Below are positions 37,780 to 53,500 of a stretch of DNA of 64,000 nucleotides, piece by piece; position 1 is the stretch's first letter; each line of letters opens with the position of its first letter. The DNA lies in the NCBI GenBank assembly GCA_026390115.1, contig JAPLGO010000016.1, positions 1-64,000 on the forward strand, written 5' to 3'. This DNA is from Campylobacterales bacterium (GTDB taxonomy: Bacteria; Campylobacterota; Campylobacteria; Campylobacterales; Sulfurimonadaceae). The notes under the pieces were generated by a model. The model made no database searches. It was not told where the DNA came from and worked only from the letters and a program-made list of their open reading frames with translations. The translations under genes and the position numbers were made by a program.

Positions 37780-37949
37780 AGTTTATTGTATTGTTATTTA
37801 ACAATCCTTATTTAGATAATATTTTATAATAGGCTTTCTATCAATATAATTTAAAGCCTTAGATACAATTTTTAAGGCTAATTTTGGGGCACAACTAAAA
37901 TTTTTAAATGTTTTAGTAGTACTAATATTTCATAAGCAGACCAAAAATA

Positions 37950-38310
37950 AGTCTTATAAAAAATGGTCGGATAGACTTAGGGCGTGAAAATTGAAAACAA
38001 ATCTTTTGAAGAGCTCATCCCACTCTATGATAAAGAAGAGACATTTTTTTACATTGACCCTCCCTATGTCTCAACCGAGAGCTACTACAAAAATACAGGT
38101 GGATTTGGAGTAGCGGAACACAAACAGTTGGCAGCGCTTTTGTTTAATGTGAAAGGCAAGTTTTTACTTTCATATAATGACTGTAAACTTGTAAGAGAGC
38201 TATACAAAGAGTTTAATATAAGAGCTACAAAAGAGATTGAATACACGCTTGGAAAAAATGTACATGGGAAGAGTAAGAGTGTGAAAGAGGTATTTATTAC
38301 TAATTATTGA
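37950..38310 (+). pseudogene. Truncated DNA adenine methylase (Dam/D12 class) remnant
   Basis: The readable part from GTG 37984 (108 aa) carries the C-terminal third of a D12-class N6-adenine methyltransferase. It has the catalytic DPPY motif (FYIDPPYVSTESYYK), LLSYNDCKLVRELY and a normal C-terminal end. The N-terminal SAM-binding and target-recognition parts are absent. Just upstream, another frame reads WSDRLRA before a stop, which fits the residues expected there, so a frameshift plus deletion is likely. A remnant of a phage methylase is the simplest view, because the next gene is a phage repressor. Confidence 0.8.
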
Positions 38311-38322
38311 ATATAATTTTGG

Positions 38323-38967
38323 ATGATAAAAATTGATGAAATTATAGAAAAACTAAAGGACATATTATCTCAAGAACTTGGCAATAAAAAGATATTAGAT
38401 AAGGATATTGCTAAAGCTCTTGAGATAGACTATGATAGATTTAGAAAACTAAAGAGTCGCAATGGCTCAGTTCCATACCCAGATATAATGATGTTTTTAG
38501 CAAAAAGAAAAATATCTATCAATTGGTTCTTCTTTAACCAACTTCCAGAAACTCTCATTGAATCCACATCAGATTACATCATACTCAAATATCAAAAATC
38601 AATCATTGCTTCAGCTGGAGGCGGTGCTATAAACTATGATATAGATTTAACCTCATTAGTTGTAGATAAGCAGCTGCTAGATTACATAAATAGCAGCTAT
38701 AAATACACTGAAGTGTTACAGGTGTTTGGTGACTCTATGGAACCTGATATTAAAGATGGAAGTTTAGTGTTTGTGGACAAAAGTGAAGTTGATATAAATA
38801 GACCAGGTGTTTATCTAATTCATACTTCAGATGGCTTACATGTAAAGAGAATAAAAGCTCAAGGTACGCATCATTACATGTCAAGCATGAACGAGAAGTA
38901 TGTTGATGTGAAGTTGGATGAATTTCAAGTGATAGGAGAGGTAAAAGGGCTATTTCAAAAGTTTTAG
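38323..38967 (+). CDS. Phage repressor, HTH + S24 (LexA/CI-like) peptidase
   Basis: 214-aa repressor. The N-terminal part (about 1-70) has a helix-turn-helix region (DKDIAKALEIDYDRFRKLKSR). The S24 domain has the Ala-Gly self-cleavage site in IASAGGGAINYD, the nucleophile Ser in FGDSMEPDIKDGS and the Lys in GLHVKRIK. Damage-triggered self-cleavage would lift repression. It reads toward a cluster of end-like repeats at 39.33-39.40 kb, the mirror image of the repressor/left-end layout of the Mu-like prophage at 44-45.5 kb. Its last 52 codons are duplicated downstream. Confidence 0.88.
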   Translation: MIKIDEIIEKLKDILSQELGNKKILDKDIAKALEIDYDRFRKLKSRNGSVPYPDIMMFLAKRKISINWFFFNQLPETLIESTSDYIILKYQKSIIASAGGGAINYDIDLTSLVVDKQLLDYINSSYKYTEVLQVFGDSMEPDIKDGSLVFVDKSEVDINRPGVYLIHTSDGLHVKRIKAQGTHHYMSSMNEKYVDVKLDEFQVIGEVKGLFQKF

Positions 38968-39329
38968 TTTTGCTTATGAAATGTGAGTGAAATCATTAAA
39001 AAAGAGCCTTTTTCTTTGCGTACTAACATTTCATAAGCAAATAATTAACATTTTAAAAGCGTTTGTACATTTATCTAATTCATACTTCAGATGGCTTACA
39101 TGTAAAGAGAATAAAAGCTCAAGGTACGCATCATTACATGTCAAGCATGAACGAGAAGTATGTTGATGTGAAGTTGGATGAATTTCAAGTGATAGGAGAG
39201 GTAAAAGGGTTGTTTCAAAAGTTTTAGTTTTGCTTGTGAAATGTGAGTGAAATCGTGTAAAAGGAGCTTATTTCTTTGCGTACTAACATTTCATAAGCAA
39301 ATAATTAACATTTTAAAAGCGTTTGTACA
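38810..39329 (+). repeat. 260-bp tandem duplication over the repressor 3' end
   Basis: 38810-39069 and 39070-39329 are two copies with a 260-bp period, no indels and a handful of substitutions. Each copy holds the last 52 codons of the repressor, its stop and the following spacer. Only the first is joined to a start. Each spacer contains 16-nt arms TTTGCTTATGAAATGT / ACATTTCATAAGCAAA around an A5-GAGCC-T5 core in copy 1. Copy 2 has one arm mismatch and an altered core. Confidence 0.92.
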
Positions 39330-39400
39330 GCGTTTGTACAGTTTGTACACTAAAAAAGTAAACTTGGACACAAATGGGCACAATGTGGGCACAGTAAGAG
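39321..39400. repeat. Cluster of short direct repeats, possible transposable-phage end
   Basis: Three GTTTGTACA(G/C) words (39321-39350) are followed by AAAAAGTAAACTTGG and then three TGGG/ACACA words (39364-39392). The AAGTAAAC core also occurs four times at the 44.1-kb prophage end. Read on the minus strand the block starts TGTGCCC. I infer the left end of a second, decayed Mu-like prophage in inverted orientation. Confidence 0.5.
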
Positions 39401-39425
39401 GGATTTATGGTTAAAACACCCGTAT

Positions 39426-39533
39426 TTAAGGGGTTTTAATTGTTGTGGCTCCGAATACTGGATTCGTGAAAAAATCTTTCAAAACACCGTGAATTAGAGC
39501 TTCTAATTGATTGGCTTCGAATTTTTGTATCAC
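39426..39533 (-). CDS. Possible 35-aa small protein
   Basis: A short frame beginning GTG at 39533, with AAGGA 6 nt upstream, reads through QKFEANQLEALIHGV and KDFFTNPVFGATTIK and stops with TAA at 39426-39428. The composition is protein-like, and the ribosome-binding site is better than chance. No family is recognised. It could also be the tail of a lost larger gene. Confidence 0.35.
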   Translation of the reverse strand: MIQKFEANQLEALIHGVLKDFFTNPVFGATTIKTP

Positions 39534-39895
39534 AATTTTTCCTTAAAGTATCATATACCTTTTGAACTCGGGAATTGTACTTTAATTATTATTAATAATT
39601 TATTAATTATGCTTTGAATTTTAATACCTATAAATGAATATATAGAATATATATTTATTTTTCATTGGCTGCCGCCGGCATAAAATAGCCTGAAAGGCTT
39701 TTTTTATTTTAAAATTATTTTTTTATTTTTTATTTTTCTAAATTTCTTTTAGATTTAATTTCTTTTTTGGGGTTTTTATTTTTCAATTACGTTGTAATTT
39801 CAAACTAAAAATTTGTAAAAAATTTTCACTTACGTTCTAATTTTTCACAAACTTCTCATTCTTATTAATTTTTTCTTTAATGGGTTATTTGACAT

Positions 39896-40034
39896 AATGA
39901 TACAATTTAACAAAAATGGAAATAAACTATAACTATATTGTGGATTTAGGCTTCTGAGCATAGATAGCCCTACAACAATTTCTTAAATTGTTGTAAGATG
40001 GTATCTATACTATACTAAATGATATTGTATCATT
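39896..40034. ncRNA. Nested inverted repeat, possible RNA or replication structure
   Basis: Outer arms AATGATACAAT (39896-39906) and ATTGTATCATT (40024-40034) match perfectly. Inside, 39961-40007 folds into one long hairpin: TAGATA/TATCTA, CC/GG, a short internal bulge, then TACAACAATTT/AAATTGTTGTA around a 3-nt loop. There is no open frame through it. Confidence 0.5.
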
Positions 40035-40395
40035 GAGTATTCGTCACATATATTCTTTTTTTTCAAGCGTGTGTTTTATACATAAAAATATAAAATACAA
40101 GAATAATATTTGAGTAATCTTAAAAAATTGTTTTAGTGATTTTGATTTTGTGGGATTTTTATCTGCGGATAGTCTTTCGCCGATTTTTGTATTATTTCTA
40201 ACTCAAACAAGATAGCCTAAACCCCCTCACATTAATAAATTAATGAGGTTGGGACAGGGGATTTAACTAAGGGTCTCTTGTCCTTGCTAAGTCTTTTTCT
40301 AAACCATTGGTTTGCTCTTACCTTGCTAATAAATTAGTTTAGGTAAGGTTTAGACGCTCATACTTTCGTATAAGGTGTTTTTTTTAGTTTTTCGT

Positions 40396-40480
40396 GAGAT
40401 TTTACGACGACATTGATAAGGGAAACCCTTACCAAGACGTCCCAACGTCCTCTAATAAAGATTCAATTTTGTAAAATCTC
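40396..40480. ncRNA. Large branched stem-loop
   Basis: Outer perfect stem GAGATTTTAC (40396-40405) / GTAAAATCTC (40471-40480). Inside, 40406-40441 forms GACG...AAGGG / CCCTT...CGTC around a GAAA-like loop, with a few mismatches. Flanking T- and A-rich tracts (near GTGTTTTTT and GAAAAAACAC) can extend the outer stem. The pairing is far beyond what AT-rich sequence alone gives. It may be an RNA or a single-strand origin. Confidence 0.5.
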
Positions 40481-40745
40481 AAACTTCCAATTGTAGAAAA
40501 AACACGAAAAGGTTACTTAAAGTTAATTTATTAAGAAGTATAAATATTTCTTAACTTAATCTAATTATAGACTAAAAAAATAATTATTTTTTTATTTTGG
40601 TGTTTTTTTCAATTTTTTTTCTTAAATTTATATATTTTCTTAAATAATTTTTAGATACAATCAAAATCCAATACATATTTAAATTGTCTCTTTTCGCTGT
40701 GGTTTGCTTTTAATTAAGTGGTGGGATTAGTGAGGCTAGCGTGGT

Positions 40746-40870
40746 ATCTCCTCTTTCTGTAAGAAGAAGAAGGAGACGATTTGAAAATATTTCTTATAAT
40801 TGTGGTTTTGATGGTACTTGCGATACCGTTGCATTAAAGAATAGGGGTTTCCCCTGTTCCACAATTATAA
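40746..40870. ncRNA. Hairpin plus three-way-junction-like structure
   Basis: A hairpin at 40747-40776 pairs TCTCCT with AGGAGA. It is followed by a perfect 12-bp outer stem TTATAATTGTGG (40794-40805) / CCACAATTATAA (40859-40870). Two inner stems sit within it: GGTA/TACC (40813-40827) and AGGGG/CCCCT (40843-40855). The result is a compact three-way junction just downstream of the relaxase stop. Confidence 0.5.
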
Positions 40871-40907
40871 TTGTATCGGTATTATATCATAATAATTGTA
40901 AAAAAAA

Positions 40908-42071
40908 TTATCTATCAATATTATTTGAATTTGAAACACCAAAATTTTGGTTTTTGGTTAATTTGCTATTGTAAACAGAACTTTTTTCAATTTCATTTTT
41001 AGTTTCATTTTCTTTTTCAAGTTCAAGTTTAATTTCTTCATTAGTTTTGTATTTATTATAAATTGAATACAATAACGCATTATTTTCTTTCAATTTTTCA
41101 TTTTCTTTTTTTAATTCAATATTTTCTTTTTCAAATATTTCATTTTCTTTTTCAAGATTTTGAAAAAATTTAGGAATATTGGCTAATTCAATACTTTTAG
41201 TTGTTTCATTTATTAGTGCTATTTGTAATTTTTCAATTATTTTGTTTTTATCAATACTAAATATTTTTTTATTTTCTAACTTTAATTTATCAATATATAC
41301 ATTAACAGCTTTTGTTGCTTGTTTATTTGCTCTATCTTGTAATAATTTATAGTTTTTTGCGGGGATATAATTCTTTTTGCCTTCTTCATTAATTTTTTTT
41401 AATTTCAAATTATATTTTTTTAATAAAATATGTTCGCTAACAAATTTATGAAAATCCTTTTGCATCTTCAAATAATGGGGACTTTCGCCAAAACTATTAT
41501 TTAAGTCATTTGTTAAACTATTATCTCCAACATACACCAAATTAATATGAGCATGTGGATTTGCTTGATCTAAATGGCCAACTAAACCAATAATTTTTGC
41601 ATTTGGCAATTTTGTTTTTAACCATTGTTCATAAATTTCTAATTGCGCACCCATAAATTCTTTACTTCGTAATAATACATTTTCTGTAATACTTGTTAAG
41701 CTCATATCTAATTCATAAAAAACATGTTGACCTGGTGAATTAGATAATGCTTTTGTATTATCTCGTTGTTCTTTCAGTTCATTGATTTCTTTCAATAATT
41801 TTTCTTTTGTTGTTTCTTTTGTAGCATTATCCATTCTAAATTTTTTCTTGGCGATTAATTTACTTAATGCAGATTTTGTAATATTAGGTTTTATATTTAT
41901 ATCTAAATATTTTTTTAAATTTTCTCGATCATCTATTGAAATAATATTAAGATATTCTTTATCACTTACCGGACCAGTTTTCAAATTTGATTTTCTTAGA
42001 TTGTGCGTTAATCGCATTTTGAAACTTTTTTCATTTTTTGTTTTACGTATATTTAAAAATGTACTACTCAT
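40908..42071 (-). CDS. Mobilisation relaxase, MobV (Pre/Mob) type
   Basis: 387-aa DNA-nicking relaxase-like protein. The metal-binding signature is GHLDQANPHAHINLVYVGD, a variant of the MobV HxDExxPHxH motif, in the middle of the N-terminal catalytic half. The Tyr or His nucleophile region cannot be fixed by eye. The C-terminal third is a Lys/Glu/Asn-rich coiled coil (EKENIELKKENEKLKENN). Codon use is extremely AT-rich, unlike the flanking phage genes. An oriT-like hairpin lies about 100 bp upstream. It would allow mobilisation by a helper conjugation system; no transfer genes are present. Confidence 0.82.
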   Translation of the reverse strand: MSSTFLNIRKTKNEKSFKMRLTHNLRKSNLKTGPVSDKEYLNIISIDDRENLKKYLDINIKPNITKSALSKLIAKKKFRMDNATKETTKEKLLKEINELKEQRDNTKALSNSPGQHVFYELDMSLTSITENVLLRSKEFMGAQLEIYEQWLKTKLPNAKIIGLVGHLDQANPHAHINLVYVGDNSLTNDLNNSFGESPHYLKMQKDFHKFVSEHILLKKYNLKLKKINEEGKKNYIPAKNYKLLQDRANKQATKAVNVYIDKLKLENKKIFSIDKNKIIEKLQIALINETTKSIELANIPKFFQNLEKENEIFEKENIELKKENEKLKENNALLYSIYNKYKTNEEIKLELEKENETKNEIEKSSVYNSKLTKNQNFGVSNSNNIDR

Positions 42072-42172
42072 GTATAAATCCTTTAATTAAATTACATTTA
42101 ATTATAGATTTTTTAAGTTTTTTTTGATTTAATTTTGAATAATTTTTTATTTCTTTTGTCAACTTTGTTCGA

Positions 42173-42237
42173 CAAGGTGATTTGTTATTATCCGCACTTG
42201 TTTTACTACGTAAAAAAGTGGGACAATAACAACCTTG
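42173..42237. other. oriT-like nested hairpin upstream of the relaxase
   Basis: Left arm 42173-42193 (CAAGGT...TGTTATTATCC) pairs with right arm 42221-42237 (GGACAATAACAACCTTG), with a 4-nt bulge and one mismatch. Inside, CACTT-TTTTA / TAAAA-AAGTG (42195-42220) forms a second stem around ctacg. It is followed by CCTTGCCCGCTGG, which superficially recalls the IncP nick context. Position and structure fit an origin of transfer for the adjacent MobV-type protein. Confidence 0.55.
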
Positions 42238-42291
42238 CCCGCTGGGAGCAACTGCGTTGAGCTTAAATGTATAAATTTATATTATATATTT

Positions 42292-42603
42292 TTATTTTTT
42301 TAGAGGATAATCTAATAATAATCTTTTAAATTCTAATATTACTATTTTACTATTTATGAATTTTCTTAAACCCTTTTTATATTCTAATATATCAGTACAA
42401 TCTAAATATTCATAATATTGTGCAACTTTTATTGCATCTAGTTTATACTCAACATTATAATTTTCAATAAAAATTTTTAATAATCTTGCAATACAACCTG
42501 TCATAAAAGGATTTTTTGACATTTCCTCTTCTTTCATTAATTCAAATATATTTTTACTATCTGATTTTTTATATTTTATTAATTTTTTTATTTTTATTTT
42601 CAT
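42292..42603 (-). CDS. Hypothetical protein of the mobile island
   Basis: 103-aa Lys-rich protein, predicted mostly helical, with no recognised motif. The N-terminus is very basic (KIKIKKLIKYKKSDSKN), compatible with nucleic-acid binding. It is transcribed toward the oriT-like hairpin and in the same direction as the relaxase gene. Base composition is as AT-rich as the relaxase gene, so it belongs to the same island. It might be an accessory mobilisation or plasmid-control protein. Confidence 0.55.
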   Translation of the reverse strand: MKIKIKKLIKYKKSDSKNIFELMKEEEMSKNPFMTGCIARLLKIFIENYNVEYKLDAIKVAQYYEYLDCTDILEYKKGLRKFINSKIVILEFKRLLLDYPLKK

Positions 42604-42651
42604 TTCTTTAGTCCTATTATGCTAGTATAATTAAAATAAAAAAGGATAAAA

Positions 42652-42909
42652 ATGATTTTTGAAGACAAGATGAAGACTTTATTTGAAAAATTTAATATAG
42701 ATACAAATATATTTACTATTAATAATGATGAAACAAAAATAGAAGTAGTTCATCAACTTTTAGCACAAGTATTTAATAATCCAGAAATATTAACAAATGA
42801 AGATAAAAAAGATATATGTGAATTTATAAATCATTATCAAGGATATAAAGTTATAAGATCTAAATATTTTGATTATCCATCTATGAAAAATTGTCAAGAA
42901 ATAATTTAA
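42652..42909 (+). CDS. Hypothetical protein, divergent from the 42.3-kb gene
   Basis: 85-aa acidic, mostly helical protein (KMKTLFEKFNIDTNIFTI, INHYQGYKVIRSKYFDYP) with no recognised domain. It has a clear TATAAT at 42626-42631 and AAGGA about 6 nt before its ATG, so it is likely expressed. It is divergent from the basic 103-aa gene with 48 bp between starts. Acid/base pairing of neighbours invites comparison with small antitoxin or inhibitor genes, but nothing else supports that. Confidence 0.6.
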   Translation: MIFEDKMKTLFEKFNIDTNIFTINNDETKIEVVHQLLAQVFNNPEILTNEDKKDICEFINHYQGYKVIRSKYFDYPSMKNCQEII

Positions 42910-42949: not shown

Positions 42950-43815
42950 TTAATAATAACTCACATTATCAATAATATCTTTTAAAATCTTTAAATTAAA
43001 TCCTTTTGCATATCTATCAAGCGTTAAACTCTCTTTTTCATTTTTGGTATGTCCTACTATTTGCTGGACCATTAAAACAATATTTACACTATCAATATTT
43101 TTTTCAATTGTCTTTTCAATAAATGTTCCACGCAATGTATGAAAATTTTTACCCGCACCTTTATCAATAATTTTATACAATTGAACTCTTGCATTTTTAG
43201 AAAATGCATTCTCAGTTCCTGGCATTAATGGAAAATTTGTATTTAGTACAAGTTCTAAAATATCTTTATGAATTGGAATTTTACGAATACCAGCAACAGT
43301 TTTTGAATTTGTAACATTGAAATAATATATATCATTTTCATTTATAATATCTTTGGTAGTTAAATTATAAATTTCTTTTTGACGCATACCTGTATATGCT
43401 GCAATTTTAAAAATTACATTATAAATTGGAATTTTATAATCAAAATTTAAAATATTAATAATCTCTTGATTTGTATAATTTTCTACTGTTTGCCTATATT
43501 CTTGCTCTTGTTTGATTTCATCCAACAAAGTATTCTTGCTCTTGTTTGATTTCATCCAACAAAGTTAAACCTGAAATATTATTTTCATTTATCAATTTAC
43601 GCTCAACAGCAAACTTAATAAAGTTTTTCAAATATTTCAAATGTTTGTTAATTGTCTTGTTTTTATATTTATTTGTTTTTATCAAGGAGGATTTAAAATC
43701 TTCAAAATCTGTTAATTCTATATCGTTTATAGATCTATCATTGAAAAATTTTATTAATAATTTAAAAGTTGATAAATATGCTTCAAGACTATCAGCACTT
43801 GTGAGAGGGTGAAAG
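42950..43815 (-). pseudogene. Tyrosine recombinase split by a 34-bp tandem duplication
   Basis: The catalytic half (42950-43555) shows Arg in AAYTGMRQKEIYNL, HTLRG as HxxR, His in QIVGHTKNEKES and Tyr in TLDRYAKG. Upstream on the same strand another frame (about 43560-43815) encodes a SAM-like core-binding domain (SLEAYLSTFKLLIKFFNDRS, KHLKYLKNFIKFAVERKLI) ending LLDEIKQEQEYFVG then stop. The two halves join in frame if one copy of a 34-bp tandem repeat is removed. No standard start codon remains in the N-terminal frame, so that end may be lost as well. It probably once moved the relaxase island. Confidence 0.85.
43500..43567. repeat. 34-bp tandem duplication inside the integrase
   Basis: TCTTGCTCTTGTTTGATTTC... 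is repeated twice with period 34 (first unit from 43500/43501, second from 43534/43535). Because 34 is not a multiple of three, it shifts the integrase frame. Loss of one unit would restore it. Confidence 0.92.
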
Positions 43816-44076
43816 AAAAGTGAGTGATAATTTCAGAGCTTTTTTTCTGTTTTACTCCGATGTTATGGTCTTTGTGGCGGTTTTAACCTTGGTGTTGTAA
43901 AAAGGTTAGTGAGTAACTTTTTTCACTATTCATCCGCATCTCCGCATCTGCATTAATCTTCCTAAAATACAAGAAAATTCACATTATATAAAGTTGCATT
44001 ATCCACGCTGTTACCGATTGTTTTGAGCATTTTTATATTGGTAAAAGTTTAGGAAAAAACAGTGAGGATTATTAAG
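43816..44076. other. Non-coding spacer between island and Mu-like prophage
   Basis: No gene is seen. Short stems include AACCTT/AAGGTT near 43886-43913 and a GTGAGT/CACT pair following it. It is presumed to be the flank into which the Mu-like prophage inserted. Confidence 0.5.
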
Positions 44077-44146
44077 TGTGAAGTTGTTGTAAAGTTGTGC
44101 AAGTAAACCATAGTAAGTAAACCAAGTAAACTTTTGTAAGTAAACC
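44077..44146. repeat. Probable left end of Mu-like prophage with transposase boxes
   Basis: The sequence turns into TGTGAAGTTGTTG at 44077, fitting the 5'-TG of transposable phages. AAGTAAAC(C) then occurs at 44101, 44115, 44124 and 44138 (spacing 14, 9, 14). Repeated boxes just inside the end are where a MuA-type transposase binds. The exact terminus cannot be proved without the right end. Confidence 0.55.
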
Positions 44147-44193
44147 TAATTATGCAAAAGTTACTAACATTTTAAGCGCAAATAATTTATAGT

Positions 44194-44850
44194 TTAGTTT
44201 AATGAAGTATCTAAATCTTTGATGATATATTCACAAATATTAAAATCATAGTCTTTATGTAATTTAAAATTTATATTTTGCATGTCTAAATTTTCAATAC
44301 CATATTTTTTTAACTGAGATTTTCTAATGAATAGAATATGAGATTTATCATTAGGATAGTTTGGTGGAAATATATTGTTATATCTATCATCATTTTTATG
44401 AAAAATAAATCCATGTAAATTAACTTCAATATCTGAGGGATTGCCAACTAACGGAGAAACAATTCTGATATATGTAGATAAGATTAAATCTTTACCTGTT
44501 AAGTGCTCCATTAAATTATGAAGTATTGTATTATTATTGGTAATCAATAAAGGTATGTCTTTTAAATATATATTTAAAGCTTTAATTTTAGCTTTTATAC
44601 TTTTATCTAGTATTCCTTTTGTATAAGGATTATCTGAATTAAAATATGCCTCTCTTACAGCATCTATAATTTCAATATCTTCTATTCCTTCCATAGAAAA
44701 AGCATATATTTTTTCATATTTATTGAGACTTTTATAATTAGACCAAGTAAAAGTATTTACCCTTTTTAAATATAAGTTAAAATAGTCTATGGGCTTAGGC
44801 TCTAGCACTTGTTTTATCTTTACAAAAAATGAATTTAATAGTTTTAACAT
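44194..44850 (-). CDS. Unknown protein between prophage left end and repressor
   Basis: 218-aa protein of unknown function. The N-terminal 16 residues are amphipathic (LKLLNSFFVKIKQVL) and could touch the membrane. The rest mixes helices and a beta-rich C-terminal half (DIEVNLHGFIFHKNDDRYNN, SHILFIRKSQLKKYGI). It is read leftwards, 11 bp after the repressor gene, so it is expressed in the lysogen. Genes in this place in Mu-like phages are often lysogenic-conversion or superinfection-exclusion factors. It is more AT-rich than the lytic genes. Confidence 0.65.
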   Translation of the reverse strand: MLKLLNSFFVKIKQVLEPKPIDYFNLYLKRVNTFTWSNYKSLNKYEKIYAFSMEGIEDIEIIDAVREAYFNSDNPYTKGILDKSIKAKIKALNIYLKDIPLLITNNNTILHNLMEHLTGKDLILSTYIRIVSPLVGNPSDIEVNLHGFIFHKNDDRYNNIFPPNYPNDKSHILFIRKSQLKKYGIENLDMQNINFKLHKDYDFNICEYIIKDLDTSLN

Positions 44851-44861
44851 TTAATATCTAT

Positions 44862-45548
44862 TTAATACAACTTAATCTTGCTTCTCATAATCCCTATAAT
44901 AGTAAGAGCTTCGAGCTTTGCCATAGTATTCAGCTCTATTGGCGAGTACTCGTGGTTTTCGCTCTCTAGTATGAGCCACTTTTCAAATGGAACTTTTTTG
45001 AGGCGTTTGACATAGAGTTCTCCGTCGATGTTTGCTATGACAGTATCGCCGCTTTTAGCTTCGCTGCATCTCTCTACTATGATGAACTCTCCGTCTTTTA
45101 TGTATGGCAACATGCTGTCGCCTGTCACTCGGATAATGTCGAGGTTATCAAATCTTTTTACATTTAAAATCTTTTCTAAAAAGTTTTTATCGAATTCCAT
45201 CACAATTGGCATGTACTCTTCAGCGTATGAGCCAAGCCCAGCCGAGGCATAGATATCTTCATAGTAGTTTATAGATACAAGATTTGTTGCTTTACAATTC
45301 AATGCTTGATTAATAATATTTATATCTTTTAGTAAATTATTTGTTTCTTTTTGCTCTAATTCACTTGGAGCAGTAAAAAATTCACTAAATCTTGTATTAT
45401 ATCTATCAATATATTCATCAGGAATATAACCTTGCTTTTTCCATTTAGTAATATAAGGTTCAGAGGCTGAAAGTGCGTTACTTAAGCCTTTCTGAGTTTT
45501 TAAACCACTTTCTTTTATCATTTTTTTTAGAAGTATATTAACATTCAT
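44862..45548 (-). CDS. Mu-like prophage repressor, HTH + S24 peptidase
   Basis: 228-aa CI/LexA-like repressor. The HTH is at about 15-40 (TQKGLSNALSASEPYITKWKK). The self-cleavage Ala-Gly is in IYASAGLGSYAEE, nucleophile Ser in VTGDSMLPYIKDGEF and Lys in GELYVKRLKK. It is divergent from the early genes across a 280-bp region with repeated ATTCACT words that are likely its operators. Mu itself uses an unrelated c repressor, so this phage is probably SOS-inducible. Confidence 0.92.
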   Translation of the reverse strand: MNVNILLKKMIKESGLKTQKGLSNALSASEPYITKWKKQGYIPDEYIDRYNTRFSEFFTAPSELEQKETNNLLKDINIINQALNCKATNLVSINYYEDIYASAGLGSYAEEYMPIVMEFDKNFLEKILNVKRFDNLDIIRVTGDSMLPYIKDGEFIIVERCSEAKSGDTVIANIDGELYVKRLKKVPFEKWLILESENHEYSPIELNTMAKLEALTIIGIMRSKIKLY

Positions 45549-45675
45549 TTATACAACCCCTTTAATAAATTTACTAGAATTCACTGTTTTCCTTGACAAT
45601 TAATGAAATTATTCACTATAATTCACTTATAATTATTCACGACTTCGAGAATAATTATATCAGAAAGTGTTCATT
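45549..45675 (+). promoter_or_regulatory. Early promoter with overlapping operator repeats
   Basis: TTGACA (45593-45598) and TATAAT (45617-45622) with 18-nt spacing form a near-consensus plus-strand promoter. ATTCAC(T) words occur at about 45579, 45611, 45621 and 45634, overlapping the promoter elements, as expected for repressor operators. Confidence 0.75.
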
Positions 45676-45780
45676 TAATTTACTTCCCCCAATTAAAACC
45701 TCAAATAAGAGAGGGTGCGGGTACATGCAAGTCGTGTACTCAAGGGGTGGCTATTGTTAATTTAAAACTATTTATTGCAA

Positions 45781-45800
45781 AGCCCTATTTATAGGGTTTT
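45781..45800 (+). terminator. Leader hairpin before first early gene
   Basis: AGCCCTATTTATAGGGTTTT: a 6-bp CCCTAT/ATAGGG stem followed by four T. It lies in the roughly 150-nt leader between the early promoter and the first gene, so it may act as an attenuator. Confidence 0.55.
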
Positions 45801-45830
45801 GAGTAGATATTTTTAAAAAAAGGATTTGTT

Positions 45831-46313
45831 ATGAAAAAAAGTGAATACAAAGCGTTGATAGCAGTGTTGTTGGCTGAAAATAGCCGTTTAAAAGAAGCTA
45901 AAAAAGCAGAGGAAAAACCTGTATTTAAAAGCTTCAATGAGCGATTTCTATATGCTTTTAAAGCTCTGAATGAAGCAAAGCAAAGTATCCCCCGTAAGAT
46001 AGGCAAAAAAGGAATATATTATAAAGATAACATTTATACCTTTGATGGCTATGAGGAGTATCAGGGCGAAATAGTGGATGTTGTGGAAGGTGATGGGGTT
46101 TTATTCTTTTATATAAACGATAAGTTTATTAGTTTTAGTCACTTGCAGGCAGAGAATAATTCAAGACATAAAACATTTGCCCAAAAGATACAAGAGAAAG
46201 AAGATTACAGAGACATGCAGGAAGAGAGAAAAAACACAAGAGAATCTAGAAAAAAACTATATGCCTCCGTTGAGGACTTTTTTAAAGCTATGAATAAGGC
46301 GAAGAGCAATTAG
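45831..46313 (+). CDS. First early protein, resembles MuA C-terminal barrel
   Basis: 160-aa protein. After a coiled N-terminus (MKKSEYKALIAVLLAENSRL) comes RKIGKKGIYYKDNIYTFDGY, VDVVEGDGVLFFYINDKFIS and HKTFAQKIQEKE. This is the same order as the C-terminal beta-barrel region of the MuA in this window (RVGKKGISYDGCNYADIELV, LVYNKNMEFVCIAVDEEHRG). No DDE residues are present. A free-standing transposase-barrel-like protein could act on transposase or DNA ends. AAAGGA lies 7-8 nt before the ATG. It ends overlapping a convergent small gene by 4 bp. Confidence 0.7.
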   Translation: MKKSEYKALIAVLLAENSRLKEAKKAEEKPVFKSFNERFLYAFKALNEAKQSIPRKIGKKGIYYKDNIYTFDGYEEYQGEIVDVVEGDGVLFFYINDKFISFSHLQAENNSRHKTFAQKIQEKEDYRDMQEERKNTRESRKKLYASVEDFFKAMNKAKSN

Positions 46314-46594
46314 CTCTTCTCTTCTAGCCTTTTATAGAGCGTTTGAATAAAATCATAATATATTTGATTTGTATCGTATAAAAGATCCATATATCCAATA
46401 ATAGTATCGGTCTCATCGATAGAATCAGCTTTTATTTTAGCTGTATCAGGCTCATCCTCTTCTGTCATATTTAGATGAAAATATGAAATTACAGTTCTTA
46501 AAAACTTTTCATCACCATCTCTAAATGTAGAGTAAGTAGAAATTAACTCTGTTTGCATTTTTTCTATCTCTTCTAGTTGTTGTTTCATATCCAT
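46310..46594 (-). CDS. Small acidic protein, antisense within the early region
   Basis: 94-aa acidic helical protein (KQQLEEIEKMQTELISTYST, TEEDEPDTAKIKADSIDETD). It is the only leftward gene between the early promoter and the late block. It is divergent from the antirepressor gene and convergent with the first early gene. No family is recognised. It may be made in the lysogen, since its promoter would not be under the early operator. Confidence 0.55.
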   Translation of the reverse strand: MDMKQQLEEIEKMQTELISTYSTFRDGDEKFLRTVISYFHLNMTEEDEPDTAKIKADSIDETDTIIGYMDLLYDTNQIYYDFIQTLYKRLEEKS

Positions 46595-46681
46595 CTTTAA
46601 GTCTCCCTATGTTTTTTTGATTTGTTTGCACTTTCATTCTAACACACGGCGACTTAATCGTGAATATTCGGAGGTTTAATC

Positions 46682-47431
46682 GTGAAAAACGAGGTAGTAG
46701 AGTTTTACGGTGAGCAGTTGCTTACCGCCAAAAGTGATGAGGGTGTAGAGTTTGTGGCGATGAAGCCGCTTTGTGAGAATTTGGGCTTGGATTGGTCAGC
46801 ACAACGCCAAAGGTTGCTTAGAGACGAGGTGTTAAAACAAGGCATGGTTATCATAACCACACCTGCAGATAATGGGGGATTAGGTGGTGCTCAAAAGACA
46901 GTTTTCATCCCAACCGAATACCTAAACGGCTGGCTCTTCGGTGTAGATGTCTCACGCCTCAAAGATGAAGCCACAAAAGCGAAGATTATTGTCTATAAAA
47001 AAGAGTGTTATAAGGTGCTCCATAAGCATTGGAACAAAAAAAGCGGTTCACCAAACGAGAGACTTGACAGAGTAGAGTCTATAGTGAGCATGATGAGCGA
47101 GAGTCTTAAACTTCTCTCTGAGAGTGTGAAGATATTGGCAGAGAACCTGAACAGACCTACCAATATTTCGCAGTTTGTGACCATTAACCCACAACTGACA
47201 GATAACAAAAGACGCAAAGAAGAGTTCATTCGATGTGTCATTGACATTCTATCTAATTTTGACGAGGGAATTTCACAAACCGCACTCTTTCACCGCCTAG
47301 AGTTCAGCCAATCAGGGCAAACCAGACGATGGCTTCATGAGGGCGTAGGCACTTGGTGGGATATGTACCAGATTCCGGGAAACGGATACAGATATATCTC
47401 TAAACCAGAAATTGCGGAGATAAACAGCTAA
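46682..47431 (+). CDS. Phage antirepressor, P22_AR/BRO N-terminal domain
   Basis: 249-aa protein. The N-terminal domain carries FVAMKPLCENLGLDWSAQRQRLLRDEVL, the phage P22 antirepressor-N pattern, followed by FIPTEYLNGWLFGVD and VYKKECYKVLHKHW. A coiled middle (about 120-160) and a C-terminal winged-helix-like part (SQTALFHRLEFSQSGQTRRWL) follow. Antirepressors bind or compete with the repressor to favour the lytic cycle. It starts at GTG 46682 with GGAGGT 6 nt upstream. Confidence 0.88.
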   Translation: MKNEVVEFYGEQLLTAKSDEGVEFVAMKPLCENLGLDWSAQRQRLLRDEVLKQGMVIITTPADNGGLGGAQKTVFIPTEYLNGWLFGVDVSRLKDEATKAKIIVYKKECYKVLHKHWNKKSGSPNERLDRVESIVSMMSESLKLLSESVKILAENLNRPTNISQFVTINPQLTDNKRRKEEFIRCVIDILSNFDEGISQTALFHRLEFSQSGQTRRWLHEGVGTWWDMYQIPGNGYRYISKPEIAEINS

Positions 47432-47442
47432 AGGAGAAGCAG

Positions 47443-47544
47443 ATGAATTACAAAGAATATAGATTAATCATAGCCGACTTACTTAAGAAGTACCCGAAGA
47501 TGAGCATCGGATGTTTCGGTAGGCTGCAAAAGGCTTTAAGATGA
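47443..47544 (+). CDS. 33-aa small early protein
   Basis: Starts at ATG 47443 behind AAGGAGAAGC, a strong ribosome-binding site, and ends at TGA 47542-47544, overlapping the next start by 4 bp. The peptide is helical and basic (NYKEYRLIIADLLKKYPKMS). No family is recognised. The tight packing with neighbours supports it as a real gene. Confidence 0.6.
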   Translation: MNYKEYRLIIADLLKKYPKMSIGCFGRLQKALR

Positions 47545-47639
47545 TGGACACGCCACTTTTAGACCTTGCATTTATCACGGTTATGGCGTTTTGCCTTACA
47601 GCAATTGTTTACTCTTTAGATAATCGGGAGGTGTTCTGA
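47541..47639 (+). CDS. 32-aa single-span membrane peptide
   Basis: ATG at 47541 overlaps the previous stop (ATGA). The peptide has one hydrophobic stretch, LLDLAFITVMAFCLTAIVYS, then a charged end DNREVF. Its stop TGA overlaps the next ATG by one base. It is a tiny phage membrane protein of unknown role. Confidence 0.6.
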   Translation: MMDTPLLDLAFITVMAFCLTAIVYSLDNREVF

Positions 47640-47800
47640 TGAATACAGACACAATTTATACATCGTATGTTAACAAGTGAAAAGAGCTAGGCTTAGAACC
47701 AAACTCAAAACGCAATTTGCTGGCAGAGCATAGAGAGCGACATAATGATCATGTAGATATAGTAACCATAAGCCAAATCAGAAAAAGGAGGAGAGATTGA
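47639..47800 (+). pseudogene. Small early gene interrupted by an in-frame TGA
   Basis: ATG 47639 reads MNTDTIYTSYVNK, then TGA, then continues in the same frame as KELGLEPNSKRNLLAEHRER... to a TGA at 47798. The expected residue at the stop is likely Trp (TGG). It could be a point mutation, sequencing error or readthrough. The downstream part is basic, perhaps DNA-binding. It is translationally linked to both neighbours. Confidence 0.6.
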
Positions 47801-48072
47801 GAGAAGAAATAGTAAAGATAATAGTAGCTGCTTCATGTCTGTCATGTAGGAAGTCAACTCTACATGATTTGGATGATGGCAAGATTTATTGTGAAGTGAG
47901 CGGCGATGAGACCAGTGATGATTTTGACTGTCCGGAGTGGGAGTGTAATTTTGACATATTTAATGTTTGCGGTTTTGAGGTGAGAGGTTTAGAGTTGCCG
48001 TCTTTGCTTGAAGCCAAAACTATTGATGATAAAAATATAAATCTTGCTAAAAATATGGGATATACCAAGTGA
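47797..48072 (+). CDS. Cys-containing early protein, unknown
   Basis: 91-aa acidic protein with Cys at SCLSCRKS, KIYCEV, DFDCPEWECN and NVCGF, which could form a small zinc site. TTG 47797 sits 4-5 nt after AAGGAGGAG and overlaps the previous stop. The 3' end overlaps the next gene by 4 bp. No family is recognised; a zinc-ribbon regulator is possible. Confidence 0.65.
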   Translation: MREEIVKIIVAASCLSCRKSTLHDLDDGKIYCEVSGDETSDDFDCPEWECNFDIFNVCGFEVRGLELPSLLEAKTIDDKNINLAKNMGYTK

Positions 48073-48329
48073 TAGAGCAGCTGCTACAAATAGTCGCTGT
48101 GAGCATTTCGCAGATGGCACTCATATTTTTAAAGCATGTGACGGTTCGTGTGATTGTTGCCCAGCAGGTTAAGAAGGCTATGTTTTTTACACTTCTTATG
48201 CAATTAGCTTGGCTCATCAGCAGTGCTCTTGGCATCAATGCACTTTTAGAACATAACTATACGATTGTTGCAGTCTATTTGGCATCTGGTGTGGTTGGCA
48301 CTTGGTTGAATTTTAAGATAAAGGTTTGA
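48069..48329 (+). CDS. Small polytopic membrane protein
   Basis: 86-aa protein with about three hydrophobic segments (LLQIVAVSISQMALIFLKHV; AMFFTLLMQLAWLISSALG; TIVAVYLASGVVGTWLNFKI). It starts at GTG 48069, overlapping the previous stop. The size and topology resemble phage holins or superinfection-exclusion proteins, but a place among early genes argues against a lysis role. The function is unknown. Confidence 0.65.
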   Translation: MIEQLLQIVAVSISQMALIFLKHVTVRVIVAQQVKKAMFFTLLMQLAWLISSALGINALLEHNYTIVAVYLASGVVGTWLNFKIKV

Positions 48330-48331
48330 GG

Positions 48332-48481
48332 ATGAGTAAAGGAGAATTAACACAAAAATTATTAGATTTAATCTGGGCAATGAGTGAAACAGATACTTGT
48401 GAAAAATCTGGGGATGAATGGATATATGTAACTCTTGATGATGGCTCAGAGTTTACAATAAATATCAATAAAGAAAAGTAA
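48332..48481 (+). CDS. 49-aa small acidic protein
   Basis: ATG 48332 is 2 nt past the previous stop, with AAGG about 9 nt upstream. The peptide SKGELTQKLLDLIWAMSETD... ends in a beta-like stretch EWIYVTLDDGSEFTININ. No family is recognised. It is supported by gene packing and sensible composition. Confidence 0.6.
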   Translation: MSKGELTQKLLDLIWAMSETDTCEKSGDEWIYVTLDDGSEFTININKEK

Positions 48482-48544
48482 ACATTTTAAAGCTCTTTTG
48501 TAAGGGCTTTGACATGGGTATTTGTTACCTATAAAGGAGAGAAG

Positions 48545-48826
48545 ATGAGTAAAAACATAAGAGATATGACACTGAGAGAGAGGTTTGAGAGCAAATTGTT
48601 CGGTATTGTGAAGTATGCGAATGCGCATGGAGTTGACCATTCTATTTTGGCAAAAGTGCTAGATGGAAAACTTGACGGAACAAAGGGTCATAGAGGAGGT
48701 AGCACTCGCCGCATTATCGCCCAGCTCAAAGCAGACAAGATTTGGATAGGAAAGCTTCCTTGGGAGATACCACACTCTAAAGAGGAGGGAGAGGATGGAA
48801 CTGCTAACGAGAAAAAAGCTAGTTGA
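48545..48826 (+). CDS. Small HTH-like early regulator
   Basis: 93-aa basic protein. RERFESKLFGIVKYANAHGV, DHSILAKVLDGKLDGT and GGSTRRIIAQLKADKIWIGK suggest a lambda-repressor-like HTH, comparable in place and size to Mu Ner, which damps early transcription just before muA. The ATG at 48545 has AAAGGAGAG upstream and is preferred to a farther in-frame start. Its end overlaps muA by 32 bp. Confidence 0.65.
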   Translation: MSKNIRDMTLRERFESKLFGIVKYANAHGVDHSILAKVLDGKLDGTKGHRGGSTRRIIAQLKADKIWIGKLPWEIPHSKEEGEDGTANEKKAS

Positions 48827-50897
48827 ACAACTTGGCATCAGTAAAATGGCACTCTCAAAGAGGCTTTCAAATACTCCTTTTACACTCATAGAAGACAAAG
48901 GCTCTACAAAGAAAGTTAAAGCCTATACACCCACAGATTTACCAGCAGATTATCAAGCAAAATTAGGCTTGGAAAATACAAAAGAGAGTAAACCCACTCA
49001 CATATCAGTGGCAAAATTCACAAGCATCTATCTTTTAGCACCTCCTGAGAAGCAAAAAACAGCTATCCAAAAGTGCAAACTCATTGAGTTTTACATGAAA
49101 AAAGATAGTAGTGTAAATACTCAAAGCTGGTTAAATCAAACATTGAAACAATCACTTGATTTTGATGAGCTTGGAAGCATATCTCTCAAGCAGCTCTATG
49201 ATTGGTTCAAAAAGTACAGAGAAGCCAAAGCAAAAGGCGTTAATGTTGTAGAGGCTTTCATAGATACTCGCGGTGCGGTTCGAGGTGTAAAAGCTATGAG
49301 CGAAGAGCAAAAAGAGAGTGCCGTGCGGTACTTTTTACGAGCAAACCGCCCGATGATAAGTGAAGTATATAGAAACATGTGTCACACATTCGGCGATACG
49401 ATGCCCTCGTATGATGTGCTAAACAGCTATTACAACGAGTGGAAGCGACTCAATCCGCTTCTTTATGAGTTTAGCAAATCACCGGACAGTGCAAAAAACA
49501 AATATCTCACCGCCTACGGAAGCGAGAGCGAAAAAGCCGCTTATAAAAACCATTATTGGGAGTTAGACAGCACGCCTGCAGATGTGATATGCAGCGACGG
49601 CAAGCGATACACGATTTTGGCAGCTATTGACATCCATACGAGACGACCTGTTTTGCATGTGAGTGAGTCAAGTAGCAGCTACTCCATATCTCAGCTTCTA
49701 CGCAAAGCAATCATAAAGCTTGGCATTCCTGAGAATGTTGTTATTGACAACGGACGGGATTACACCTCCATCCACTTTGAGAGCATATGTATAAACCTCG
49801 GCATAAACATGGTTATCGTGCCTCCCTTTAGTGGTGAGTGTAAACCGCATGTCGAGAGATTTTTTGGAACACTCTCAAGAGAACTGTTTGAGCAGATGCC
49901 CGGTTACATAGGTCACAATGTAGCTCAAAGAGCCGAGATACAAGCCAGAAAATCATTTGCTCATAAAATAGAGTCACAGACAAAGTGGAGAGAAGAGAAA
50001 AAAGTAAAAACAGACGAAGAGAAGCAAGCTTGGCGAGATGCTTGGAAGATAAAAAAAGAGAACCTAGGACTTGAGCTTAGTCTTGTTATCAGTGCAGATG
50101 AGCTTCAAATGTGGTGCGACAACTGGGTCGATAAGATGTATGAGCAGAGGCGACACGGTGGCTTAGATATGAAGCCGATAGACAAATGGAACGCAAACAC
50201 CTCTCCGGTTCAAACCATCCCCGATATACGGATGCTTGATTTACTTCTTGGTGAGAGTGTCACGCGGCGTGTCGGCAAAAAAGGCATCAGTTATGACGGC
50301 TGTAACTATGCCGACATAGAATTGGTTGAACTTACCGGACAATATGTGCACATCATGGCTCCTGAAGATATGGGGCAAATACTTGTTTATAACAAAAATA
50401 TGGAGTTTGTCTGCATAGCCGTAGATGAAGAGCATCGCGGAGAAAACAGGCATTTGGCTAGAAAAGCCAGAAACAAATCACTCGCTCTTATGAAGCAGCT
50501 TGACAAAATTGTCAAAGAAGCTCAGGCTACAAAAGATGTGACCATTATGGATAGGATAGAAGCCGTAAGTGATGCGCGCTCAAGCAAAACATTTGCAGTT
50601 ACAAAGCACACTGAGGCAGTGGACAGACTCATTCAAACAGGCAAAGAGCTTGAAGCTTTCGATGCCAAAGAGCTTGAGAAATCTATCCGCTACGACTTTA
50701 CACAGAAGGATGAAGAGGGTTTACCTCCTAAAGTCCTTGCAAATGGCAGACCGCCGTTTAAAACTTATATGGAACGCTTTATTTGGGTACTCGAACACGA
50801 CGGCGAGTGGAACGATAAAGATGAAAAATTAAAAGATGATAATCCAGAGATATATGAGATGGCATATAGTGATTTTTTGAGAAGAAAAGCTGGATAA
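48795..50897 (+). CDS. Mu-type DDE transposase (MuA)
   Basis: 700-aa transposase that would cut the phage ends and join them to target DNA. The N-terminal winged-helix/HTH parts (ELLTRKKLVEQLGISKMALS) precede the rve catalytic core. The DDE residues are Asp in ELDSTPADVICSDG, Asp in VVIDNGRDYTS and Glu in KPHVERFFGTLSRE. The C-terminal beta-barrel starts at VGKKGISYDGCNY and is followed by a basic coiled tail that contacts MuB. Length is close to Mu MuA (663 aa). It overlaps the upstream regulator and precedes muB by about 80 bp. Confidence 0.95.
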   Translation: MELLTRKKLVEQLGISKMALSKRLSNTPFTLIEDKGSTKKVKAYTPTDLPADYQAKLGLENTKESKPTHISVAKFTSIYLLAPPEKQKTAIQKCKLIEFYMKKDSSVNTQSWLNQTLKQSLDFDELGSISLKQLYDWFKKYREAKAKGVNVVEAFIDTRGAVRGVKAMSEEQKESAVRYFLRANRPMISEVYRNMCHTFGDTMPSYDVLNSYYNEWKRLNPLLYEFSKSPDSAKNKYLTAYGSESEKAAYKNHYWELDSTPADVICSDGKRYTILAAIDIHTRRPVLHVSESSSSYSISQLLRKAIIKLGIPENVVIDNGRDYTSIHFESICINLGINMVIVPPFSGECKPHVERFFGTLSRELFEQMPGYIGHNVAQRAEIQARKSFAHKIESQTKWREEKKVKTDEEKQAWRDAWKIKKENLGLELSLVISADELQMWCDNWVDKMYEQRRHGGLDMKPIDKWNANTSPVQTIPDIRMLDLLLGESVTRRVGKKGISYDGCNYADIELVELTGQYVHIMAPEDMGQILVYNKNMEFVCIAVDEEHRGENRHLARKARNKSLALMKQLDKIVKEAQATKDVTIMDRIEAVSDARSSKTFAVTKHTEAVDRLIQTGKELEAFDAKELEKSIRYDFTQKDEEGLPPKVLANGRPPFKTYMERFIWVLEHDGEWNDKDEKLKDDNPEIYEMAYSDFLRRKAG

Positions 50898-50905
50898 AGA
50901 TTTAA

Positions 50906-50970
50906 CAGATGAGTAAGAGTTCCTCTTACTTATCGCTTAAGTCTTTGGCAAAAAAGACTAATAAAACTAA
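50906..50970 (+). terminator. Two hairpins between muA and muB
   Basis: GATGAGTAAGAG/CTCTTACTTATC (about 50907-50937) and a second stem CTTAAGTCTTT/AAAAGACTAA (about 50938-50966) lie in the 80-bp gap, just before the muB ribosome-binding site AAGGA. They may set the MuA:MuB ratio by attenuation or mRNA stability. Confidence 0.55.
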
Positions 50971-50979
50971 GGATAAGAG

Positions 50980-51684
50980 ATGAAAGAGGAATTTATTACG
51001 ACTGTGAATTATAGCACAATCTATGAGGCGGTGCAAAGCCTAAAGAGCTTGCCGAGAACCGCACCAAAAATGGGTCTTGGTTTTGGACACTTTGGACTTG
51101 GCAAAACATTTTCACTTGAGACGATAGCAGCTCTTGAAAATGCAATCTTATTAAGAGCTGCTCAGACTTGGACGAAGTCAAGCGTTTTGACAGACCTTTG
51201 TGAAGAGCTTGGAGTTGACACAAACGGACACGGACCAATTAAGTATAAAAGAGTGATTGAAGCACTTGTAAGCGAGCCGAGAGTCATTATTGTCGATGAG
51301 ATAGATGCGCTACTCCGCTCAAGCAAATTTGAAGTGCTTGAGATGTTTAGAGATTTTCACGATGAAACAGGTGTGGTTATCTTTTTTGTAGGAATGGAGG
51401 AGAGTAACCGTAAGCTTAAAAAGCATAAACACTTCTATAGCCGAATCGTTGAGTTTGTGGAATTTCAATCTATACACAAAGCAGATATAGAGAAGTTCTG
51501 TTCACTGAGCGATGTACTCATAAAGCCTGATTTAGTTGATTATTTTTACAGAAAATTTCCAAACTTAAGACAAGTAAAAGTACTCCTTATTCGCCTTGAA
51601 AAATATTGTGCATTAAATGACATTGAAGAGGTTGACCTTAAAACTTTTAAAATGAGTGGAGCGGAATATGGCGACAAAAAATAA
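50980..51684 (+). CDS. MuB-like AAA+ ATPase, target-DNA activator
   Basis: 234-aa ATPase. Walker A is FGHFGLGKTFS, Walker B is RVIIVDEIDALL, and sensor 1 lies in GVVIFFVGMEESN. MuB forms filaments on target DNA and stimulates MuA. It is shorter than Mu MuB (312 aa) and lacks its N-terminal HTH, as in many MuB relatives. It is preceded by AAGGA and overlaps the next gene by 17 bp. Confidence 0.92.
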   Translation: MKEEFITTVNYSTIYEAVQSLKSLPRTAPKMGLGFGHFGLGKTFSLETIAALENAILLRAAQTWTKSSVLTDLCEELGVDTNGHGPIKYKRVIEALVSEPRVIIVDEIDALLRSSKFEVLEMFRDFHDETGVVIFFVGMEESNRKLKKHKHFYSRIVEFVEFQSIHKADIEKFCSLSDVLIKPDLVDYFYRKFPNLRQVKVLLIRLEKYCALNDIEEVDLKTFKMSGAEYGDKK

Positions 51685-52249
51685 GACAAACGAACCACTC
51701 AGATACAAAAGAAATTCAAGTGCTCTCAAAAAAGTATGGGATTACATGCGACGCAACCGCACCTTTAGATTTGGCGATGTTGTAATGATTACAGGTGTCA
51801 CACATAGCTATCTAAAAAACATCATCTGGCATCTCTCAAGAGTTGGTTATGTAGAGATGGTTGAGAAGGTTAAGCCTTACAGTTCTACACATTTTACGCT
51901 TATCAAATACACCGGAGTAAAAAGTCCATCCATTATCAACGGCGTCGTATTTGATTACAACTTAGGCAAAGAGATAAAGATAGAGATTACTCCAACGCTC
52001 ACAAAGCTTTTGGCATGTATGACTGATGCGAAGATGAGCAAACACACGATAGCTACAAATGCAGGGGTGAGTTTTGCAGTAGCGAAGAGGTGGTTCACAA
52101 AGTTGAGTGAACGAGAAATCATAAGCGAAATATATCCCATTGAGAGAGTTGACGGAACAAAAGCATTTGTGATTGATTTGGAAAAAGTGGAGCTGCTTAA
52201 AAATGAGATAGAAGCCGGTACTTTTAAAATCAAAGGTGCTTTGTCATGA
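51668..52249 (+). CDS. Winged-helix DNA-binding phage protein
   Basis: 193-aa basic protein with two winged-helix-like units. About 15-75 reads LKKVWDYMRRNRTFRFGDVV / TGVTHSYLKNIIWHLSRVGY, and about 115-170 reads KHTIATNAGVSFAVAKRWFT / SEREIISEIYPIERV. The ATG at 51668 behind GGAGCGGA is preferred over the earlier frame. It is probably a regulator or target-site factor. It overlaps muB and the next gene. Confidence 0.75.
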   Translation: MATKNKTNEPLRYKRNSSALKKVWDYMRRNRTFRFGDVVMITGVTHSYLKNIIWHLSRVGYVEMVEKVKPYSSTHFTLIKYTGVKSPSIINGVVFDYNLGKEIKIEITPTLTKLLACMTDAKMSKHTIATNAGVSFAVAKRWFTKLSEREIISEIYPIERVDGTKAFVIDLEKVELLKNEIEAGTFKIKGALS

Positions 52250-52563
52250 GTGTAGAGTTACTTAAAAAAGCATGTGAACTCTATAGTCAAAGAGAAGTTG
52301 CAAGACGCATAGGTAAAAGTGCTACAACTGTAAATCATATACTCAAAGGCATCTATCCAAAGCCGGAGCCAATTCTAAAAACAGTGAGTGAAGTGTTTGC
52401 AGATTTGGCAGACGAGGAGATAGTTTGTCCGGTTCTAGGAAAGATACACGGTGATGTCTGCCAAAGATACAAAGAGTGGGCGAAGTTGGACAAAGTGCAT
52501 AAAGACAGACTTTACATGCAAGTAAAAGAGAGTTGCAAAAATTGCACAAGGGGCAAAAGATGA
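52246..52563 (+). CDS. HTH protein with C-terminal Cys cluster
   Basis: 105-aa protein. The N-terminal HTH is YSQREVARRIGKSATTVNHI. The C-terminus carries four Cys in VCPVLGKIHGDVCQRY and KESCKNCTRG, a likely zinc site. It overlaps its neighbours by 4 bp at both ends (ATGA). Its role in the phage is unknown; transcription control is likely. Confidence 0.72.
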   Translation: MSVELLKKACELYSQREVARRIGKSATTVNHILKGIYPKPEPILKTVSEVFADLADEEIVCPVLGKIHGDVCQRYKEWAKLDKVHKDRLYMQVKESCKNCTRGKR

Positions 52564-52673: not shown

Positions 52674-52676
52674 AAG

Positions 52677-52910: not shown

Positions 52911-52993
52911 AGTGCATATGCACAATATGCACTTTATGGAGTACTTCCAAATTCCATATGCAACCGACGGGTGGCAAAGTAAAAGGTAAAACC

Positions 52994-53498: not shown

Positions 53499-53500
53499 TT

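Follow-up and report, generated by a model that had tools for sequence, protein, structure and literature searches.

By their character, the nearest known kinds to the RNA proposed here appear to be GOLLD, ROOL and the transcripts of a Vibrio satellite and its phage. ROOL is a large structured RNA of phages and prophages, and the large structured RNAs borne by phages are described as having no known function (PMC12286853). A GOLLD RNA is reported to be dispensable for phage production (PMC7567579). The same source, on the satellite PLE and phage ICP1, describes the inter-inverted-repeat transcript of the former and a transcript of the latter (about 800 nt) as non-coding and each the most abundant of its genome; the PLE transcript takes its name from the inverted repeats on either side of it and matches gene leaders in antisense orientation (PMC7567579).

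Here we analyse a folded block of DNA in a Campylobacterales genome. The window, that is the whole stretch of 64,000 nucleotides analysed, is on contig C33 of its genome, and the features discussed are collected in Table 1. The block is like GOLLD and ROOL in having the character of a large folded RNA, not in sequence. It differs from both in having no Rfam match, and from GOLLD also in its setting, since it is found in integrative elements (one with a relaxase) and not in a phage. Its resemblance to the PLE and ICP1 transcripts, which are non-coding and come from a satellite and a phage, is again one of character. The PLE transcript has antisense matches to gene leaders, whereas complementarity of the block to element or prophage genes was nowhere above control: conserved 14-mers, examined for an antisense role, gave 3 complementary matches in C33:1-100000 and L004 taken together and 3 in the reversed control.

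We consider it somewhat more probable than the opposite that the block encodes a large structured non-coding RNA, some 880 nt long and probably on the minus strand, and that small tRNA-targeting integrative elements carry this gene. Our confidence is moderate for its being an RNA gene and low for its role.

Table 1. Coordinates of the features of the window element, from left to right
Feature	Position	Strand	Evidence
att remnant	39447..39466	+	20 bp identical to tRNA-Asn 3' end; exact match at C33:39447, 79708, 79815; alignable arm DNA in G009 sibling
Conserved structured block	39648..40609	-	83% identity to C16:188023-188952; no further blastn match between the two elements
Proposed large non-coding RNA, about 880 nt	39680..40558	- (strand and ends predicted)	z -9.3; C16 copy -8.6; 10/11 double changes compensatory; without coding capacity
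Terminator-like hairpin, putative 3' end of proposed RNA	39687..39699	-	reads as terminator on both strands
17-pair hairpin	40423..40464	-	6 changed pairs; all pair as minus-strand RNA if G-U counts
5' hairpin	40531..40554	-	directly after -10 box; 4 compensatory changes in 7 pairs
TATAAT -10 box	40564..40569 (L004 8063-8068 in C16 copy)	-	both copies have it inside diverged DNA
18-residue hydrophobic peptide ORF, TTG start, type I toxin-like	40781..40837	+	homologous DNA in 18/228 family genomes; peptide in 16/20 loci
Terminator-like hairpin opposite peptide ORF, possible antitoxin RNA	40843..40855	-	terminator scan
Divergent MobV-type relaxase	40908..42071	-	387 aa; Mob_Pre / MobV sub-cut-off matches; motif
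Nested hairpin, candidate oriT	42166..42240		folded as DNA, z -5.9; 0/200 shuffles as good
ORF 103 aa	42292..42603	-	no family
ORF 85 aa	42652..42909	+	no family above cut-off
Tyrosine integrase remains	42950..43790	-	two frames, 34-bp duplication; N-terminal part absent here; PF00589 E 1.4e-7

Conservation and folding of the block

When the window's own genome was searched with 39400-42300, the query returned the locus itself, a 43-bp match at tRNA-Asn and one further copy of the block, on contig C16 (Table 1), so that the evidence on the block comes from two sequences, both from one genome. The initial annotation had described this region as 1.4 kb of non-coding DNA rich in stems. The stretch 39534-40907 is indeed non-coding and strongly folded, but it is made of several units and is not one block: it holds the RNA-like unit 39648-40609 and a separate toxin-like peptide locus at about 40740-40875, and the tRNA-Asn att remnant is just outside its left end.

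The two copies form a mosaic of identical and diverged stretches. Five of the 20 fifty-column windows of their alignment are 94-100% identical and the others far lower, and the longest identical runs are of 73, 52, 46, 42 and 36 bases. Most gaps have a length that is not a multiple of three. The longest run without a stop is 52 codons in the window core and 45 in the C16 copy, below the average of 60.6 that 100 shuffles gave for the window copy. Given this identity pattern, the gap lengths and the short stop-free runs, the block is conserved, though not as protein. For comparison, the integrases of the two elements are 43-49% identical (three aligned pieces), while the block retains identical runs of up to 73 bases.

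What is conserved in the block is a fold. For its 879-nt core, 39680-40558, the z-score is -9.3 on the minus strand and -5.5 on the plus strand (60 dinucleotide shuffles), and the C16 copy has -8.6 and -8.2 respectively (60 shuffles each). With 20 shuffles the minus-strand core gives -7.6, and a wider stretch, 39660-40620, gives -5.5 on minus and -8.0 on plus (20 shuffles only). For the neighbouring 40560-40905 the minus-strand value is -3.8 (100 shuffles).

Compensation was examined by predicting the structure from one copy alone and then checking its pairs in the other. On the minus strand, from window to C16, 233 pairs have a probability above 0.5, and 56 of them are changed; 10 of the 11 double-changed pairs still pair (null mean 2.8, maximum 8 in 2000). 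In the reverse direction, with the C16 structure applied to the window, 11 of 16 double changes pair. The predicted fold is right only in part, and some of its parts are wrong or variable, because 33 of the 56 changed pairs are lost while 23 still pair. On two sequences, then, the block has the conserved fold with compensatory changes and the lack of coding capacity that mark a large structured RNA.

Folding by itself does not tell the two strands apart, since the plus strand passes the double-change test as well (8/12 and 12/14), RNAalifold favours plus slightly (15 double-changed pairs against 12 on minus, and 10 one-sided kept changes against 6) and the wider stretch folds better on plus. 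If the block is transcribed, the minus strand is nevertheless the likelier one because of the kept -10 box, the 5' hairpin that follows it and the 17-pair hairpin that depends on G-U pairs (Table 1). Further, both copies of the block contain a terminator-like hairpin on the plus strand (window 40165-40180; C16 L004 8459-8444); it would shorten a long plus transcript, which also favours minus. The hairpin 39687-39699 has its longer T run on plus, i.e. it is stronger there, and its counterpart was not reported by the terminator scan of the C16 copy.

Searches for further copies of the block were made at several levels. No Rfam match at gathering score was found in the window, and a relaxed scan of 39200-42700 gave 4 chance-level matches up to E 5, none of them to GOLLD. 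For the C16 copy the relaxed scan, run up to E 5, gave 10 matches; none reached the gathering score and none was to GOLLD, the best being a plastid 3' UTR model on the 5' hairpin (41.4 bits). No match to the block was found in plasmids and phages. With blastn, 39640-40960 matched 60 of 149 related genomes at E ≤0.001. Outside the genome's own copies these matches were rejected as RNA homologues: the best listed (68 bits) is the separate peptide locus, and the others, of at most 51 bits, are short and AT-rich.

Two covariance models, R1 (40146-40294) and R2 (39884-40050), were run on four overlapping sets of 228-398 genomes each and gave no convincing match besides the two copies in the window's genome. 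Model R2 found the window's genome only, in 398 genomes of the order (E 0.01) and in 346 of the phylum (E 0.001), and R1 likewise among 228 family genomes at E 0.01. Among 397 phylum genomes R1 gave 13 with E up to 0.1, of which 12 are not the own genome (21-26 bits, E 0.006-0.065). The best of these (25.9 bits) was discarded as it sits inside a 606-aa ORF, and the loci of the other 11 had no significant match to the whole-block profile. Exact scans, which miss diverged copies and whose records may omit those near the window's genome, found a 21-mer of the block at 0 places in genome contigs and a 17-mer at 44, where the best whole-block profile match (10.8 bits) was taken as chance. Exact-pattern scans of viral contigs gave 5 places in total, none of which extends; the best (L136, 9.0 bits) is inside an ORF of at least 1271 aa and was rejected. 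In the literature nothing judged relevant on Sulfurimonas RNA was among the matches listed, from which we claim no absence from print. As far as these searches reach, either the predicted RNA occurs rarely or its relatives lie outside the sampled genomes.

Relaxase, candidate oriT and peptide locus

The initial annotation had named a MobV-type relaxase with a nested hairpin upstream. The HxDxxxPHxH metal motif defines the MobV family, and the window protein has it: GHLDQANPHAHIN aligns with HLDEANPHLHIN of the plasmid MobV-type protein of pTVTCOM3. The relaxase-like ORF and its motif stand, but the scores are below the curated cut-offs, just under for Pfam Mob_Pre (E 6.3e-5, 23.3 bits; cut-off 25.5) and far under for NCBIfam MobV (E 0.0022, 18.1 bits; cut-off 100), and we hence call the protein MobV-type and do not file it as a member. 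It is like the MobM-type MobV relaxases of pMV158 in that its HLDxANPHxHIN motif aligns with a plasmid MobV-type protein and inverted repeats are found upstream, and differs from them in its scores and in a best plasmid match of only E 0.02. No relative was found in 148 other related genomes or in viral contigs, and no sequence match in the PDB. A single-sequence structure model (pLDDT 45.7) was too poor for a structure search. The upstream hairpin is borne out as a DNA fold, with z -5.9 against 200 shuffles, and is a plausible oriT.

The peptide locus sits between the relaxase and the proposed RNA, in folded DNA that is absent from C16. Homologous DNA is present in 18 of 228 family genomes, the own genome included, at 22 places, twice in four genomes. 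Of 20 loci examined, 16 yielded the 18-residue peptide, whose core is VVLMVLA or close to it. Its letters presumably resemble toxins of the Ibs kind. The likeness to the Ibs-Sib type I toxin-antitoxin system lies in a very short hydrophobic peptide (18 aa, against 19 aa for IbsC; PMC8309996) with a possible antisense RNA; it is taken as one of size and character, and the peptide stretch has no Rfam match at gathering score. The peptide is thus possibly type I toxin-like, with a possible antisense antitoxin RNA, and its locus may explain why about 40740-40900 is folded, separately from the large RNA.

The elements that carry the block

The window element has a site-specific integrase, now broken, and an att repeat of a tRNA gene, as integrative mobilisable elements do. 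The only other copies of the 20-bp att sequence are within two tRNA-Asn genes (C33:79708 and 79815), and other DNA now separates the remnant at 39447 from the intact tRNA-Asn at 79708. Within the integrase remains, a 34-bp perfect tandem duplication at 43497-43564 shifts the frame. An apparent Mu-like prophage, from about 44000-64000 of the window on to about C33:79.6 kb, separates the element from tRNA-Asn; its genes include an S24 repressor (44862-45548), a transposase (48795-50897), a TniB-like ATPase (50980-51684) and, at C33 77.4-79.5 kb, Dam-like and S24-like genes. Because the integrase is broken and this apparent prophage lies between the element and the intact tRNA, the element now looks stuck.

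On the other side of the element, the stretch 37947-39341 is 89-91% identical to C33:77.8-79.6 kb (a Dam-like fragment and the S24 gene) and contains a 260-bp tandem duplication at 38810-39329. It looks like the remnant of a second Mu-like right end.

The C16 copy of the block lies in an element of 5.1 kb integrated at tRNA-Ser (L004 3951-4038), with a 20-bp direct repeat of the tRNA end at L004 9116-9135. Besides the block this element contains a frameshifted tyrosine integrase, 288-aa and 94-aa ORFs without family, and a DUF535 gene (L004 6824-7771), which is cargo. The 288-aa protein has no plasmid match, and its structure model was too poor for a structure search. In both elements a distance of about 160-180 bp separates the block from the att repeat at the end away from the integrase. 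A blastn comparison of the whole window element with the C16 element found no similarity outside the block, and in a three-way alignment their att arms are weakly alike.

The window relaxase has no second match in its own genome, so the C16 element is without such a relaxase. That the folded block belongs to a MobV backbone, as initially proposed, is not supported, since the only other copy found sits in an element lacking the relaxase; the block looks like an RNA gene separate from that backbone. The annotation had taken the locus for a small mobilisable replicon or satellite fixed in the chromosome, and a mobilisable element fixed there is supported: there is a relaxase-like protein, there are tyrosine-integrase remains, and there are 20 bp of the tRNA-Asn 3' end. 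It had also named, as signs against itself, absence of the block from all other MobV loci together with a lack of covariation. The searches turned up no further MobV locus that has the block, yet compensatory changes are present (10/11).

With the C16 integrase as query, two others among 99 related genomes match at 1e-15, G009 and G108. In G108 no second repeat of the tRNA end was found within the stretch examined. The G009 sibling element (L106 5951-10721, about 4.75 kb), in a different genome of the same genus, is at tRNA-Asn with a 23-bp repeat, and has an integrase related to that of C16, a RepL gene and att-arm DNA alignable with that of the window. It also codes for a 286-aa protein resembling a second recombinase (no family found) and has a Sel1-type repeat gene. 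When the proteins of the three elements were compared with each other, none matched below E 0.1 except Sel1-repeat proteins, and the Sel1 protein of the window is outside its element. A whole-block profile search covering the G009 locus gave no match, i.e. the sibling is without the RNA. A gap in the sibling, L106 8235-8966 (0.7 kb), is well folded (z -6.0, 20 shuffles), and a short hydrophobic ORF was seen there by eye; this is perhaps another type I toxin locus.

Judged by gene content, the plasmid link of the element family is real, because the sibling bears a RepL plasmid replication gene. By the same comparison the family swaps modules, the predicted RNA being one of them, since the related sibling has RepL but not the RNA.

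What the block may be

If the block is an RNA gene, transcription would start at a promoter of its own (-10 box at 40569-40564) and run to the hairpin near 39687, the transcript, its strand and its ends all being predicted. The gene's carriers would be small integrative elements, of about 5 kb, that target tRNA genes. The window host would be an integrative mobilisable element whose integrase moved it into and out of tRNA-Asn, and whose MobV-type relaxase would nick the upstream hairpin as oriT and use a helper conjugation system. The RNA itself would, most likely but with low confidence, act in trans as a stable folded molecule during the mobile phase of the element. This role is suggested by the analogy to GOLLD and ROOL, which phages carry; the reported dispensability of a GOLLD RNA weakens this analogy as a functional guide.

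Three other explanations bear on the same observations, the main rivals being an origin at the DNA level and an RNA-primed one. The block could act as DNA, either as a replication origin or in recombination, with hairpins that form when the DNA is single-stranded and with incidental transcription. This would agree with the strong folding of both strands in both copies, with changes that are compensatory on either strand and with the position near the att end; however, some changed pairs hold only via G-U on one strand, and at one edge there is a -10 box that both copies keep, with a covarying hairpin directly after it. Moreover, 0.9 kb is long for a replication origin, and we regard action as DNA as unlikely. 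A non-functional repeat present in two places, such as a duplication or a transposable repeat, seems very improbable: it is true that there are two copies, found only in this genome, but the mosaic of identical and diverged stretches together with the compensatory changes implies selection, and blastn finds no similarity beyond the block.

The block might also be an RNA-primed replication origin like that of ColE1 RNA II, in which a long folded transcript would prime the excised circle and replace Rep. No antisense gene like RNA I was identified, and since neither the 288-aa ORF of C16 nor the small ORFs could be assigned to a family, one of them may be a Rep of a new type; we think an RNA-primed origin unlikely. 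In its favour, neither of the two elements with the block has a recognisable Rep gene, which for the window agrees with what was annotated initially, and RepL was not found in the window's genome, while the sibling that lacks the RNA has RepL. The size of the element and its mobilisation gene fit ColE1-type plasmids, and the 5' hairpin differs between the coexisting copies, as incompatibility would favour.

Returning to the large non-coding RNA, its widest form would be an undescribed class of giant structured RNA without Rfam kin, carried on integrative mobilisable elements, needed for their mobile phase and possibly replacing a replication protein; we would put the chances of this at about even. 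The sibling with a related integrase has no such RNA, so it would not be essential to the element family. Bacterial RNA classes this large and folded are few. If the proposal is true, an RNA on an element of about 5 kb, with few genes and in two cargo contexts, would offer a tractable setting for the function of large RNAs.
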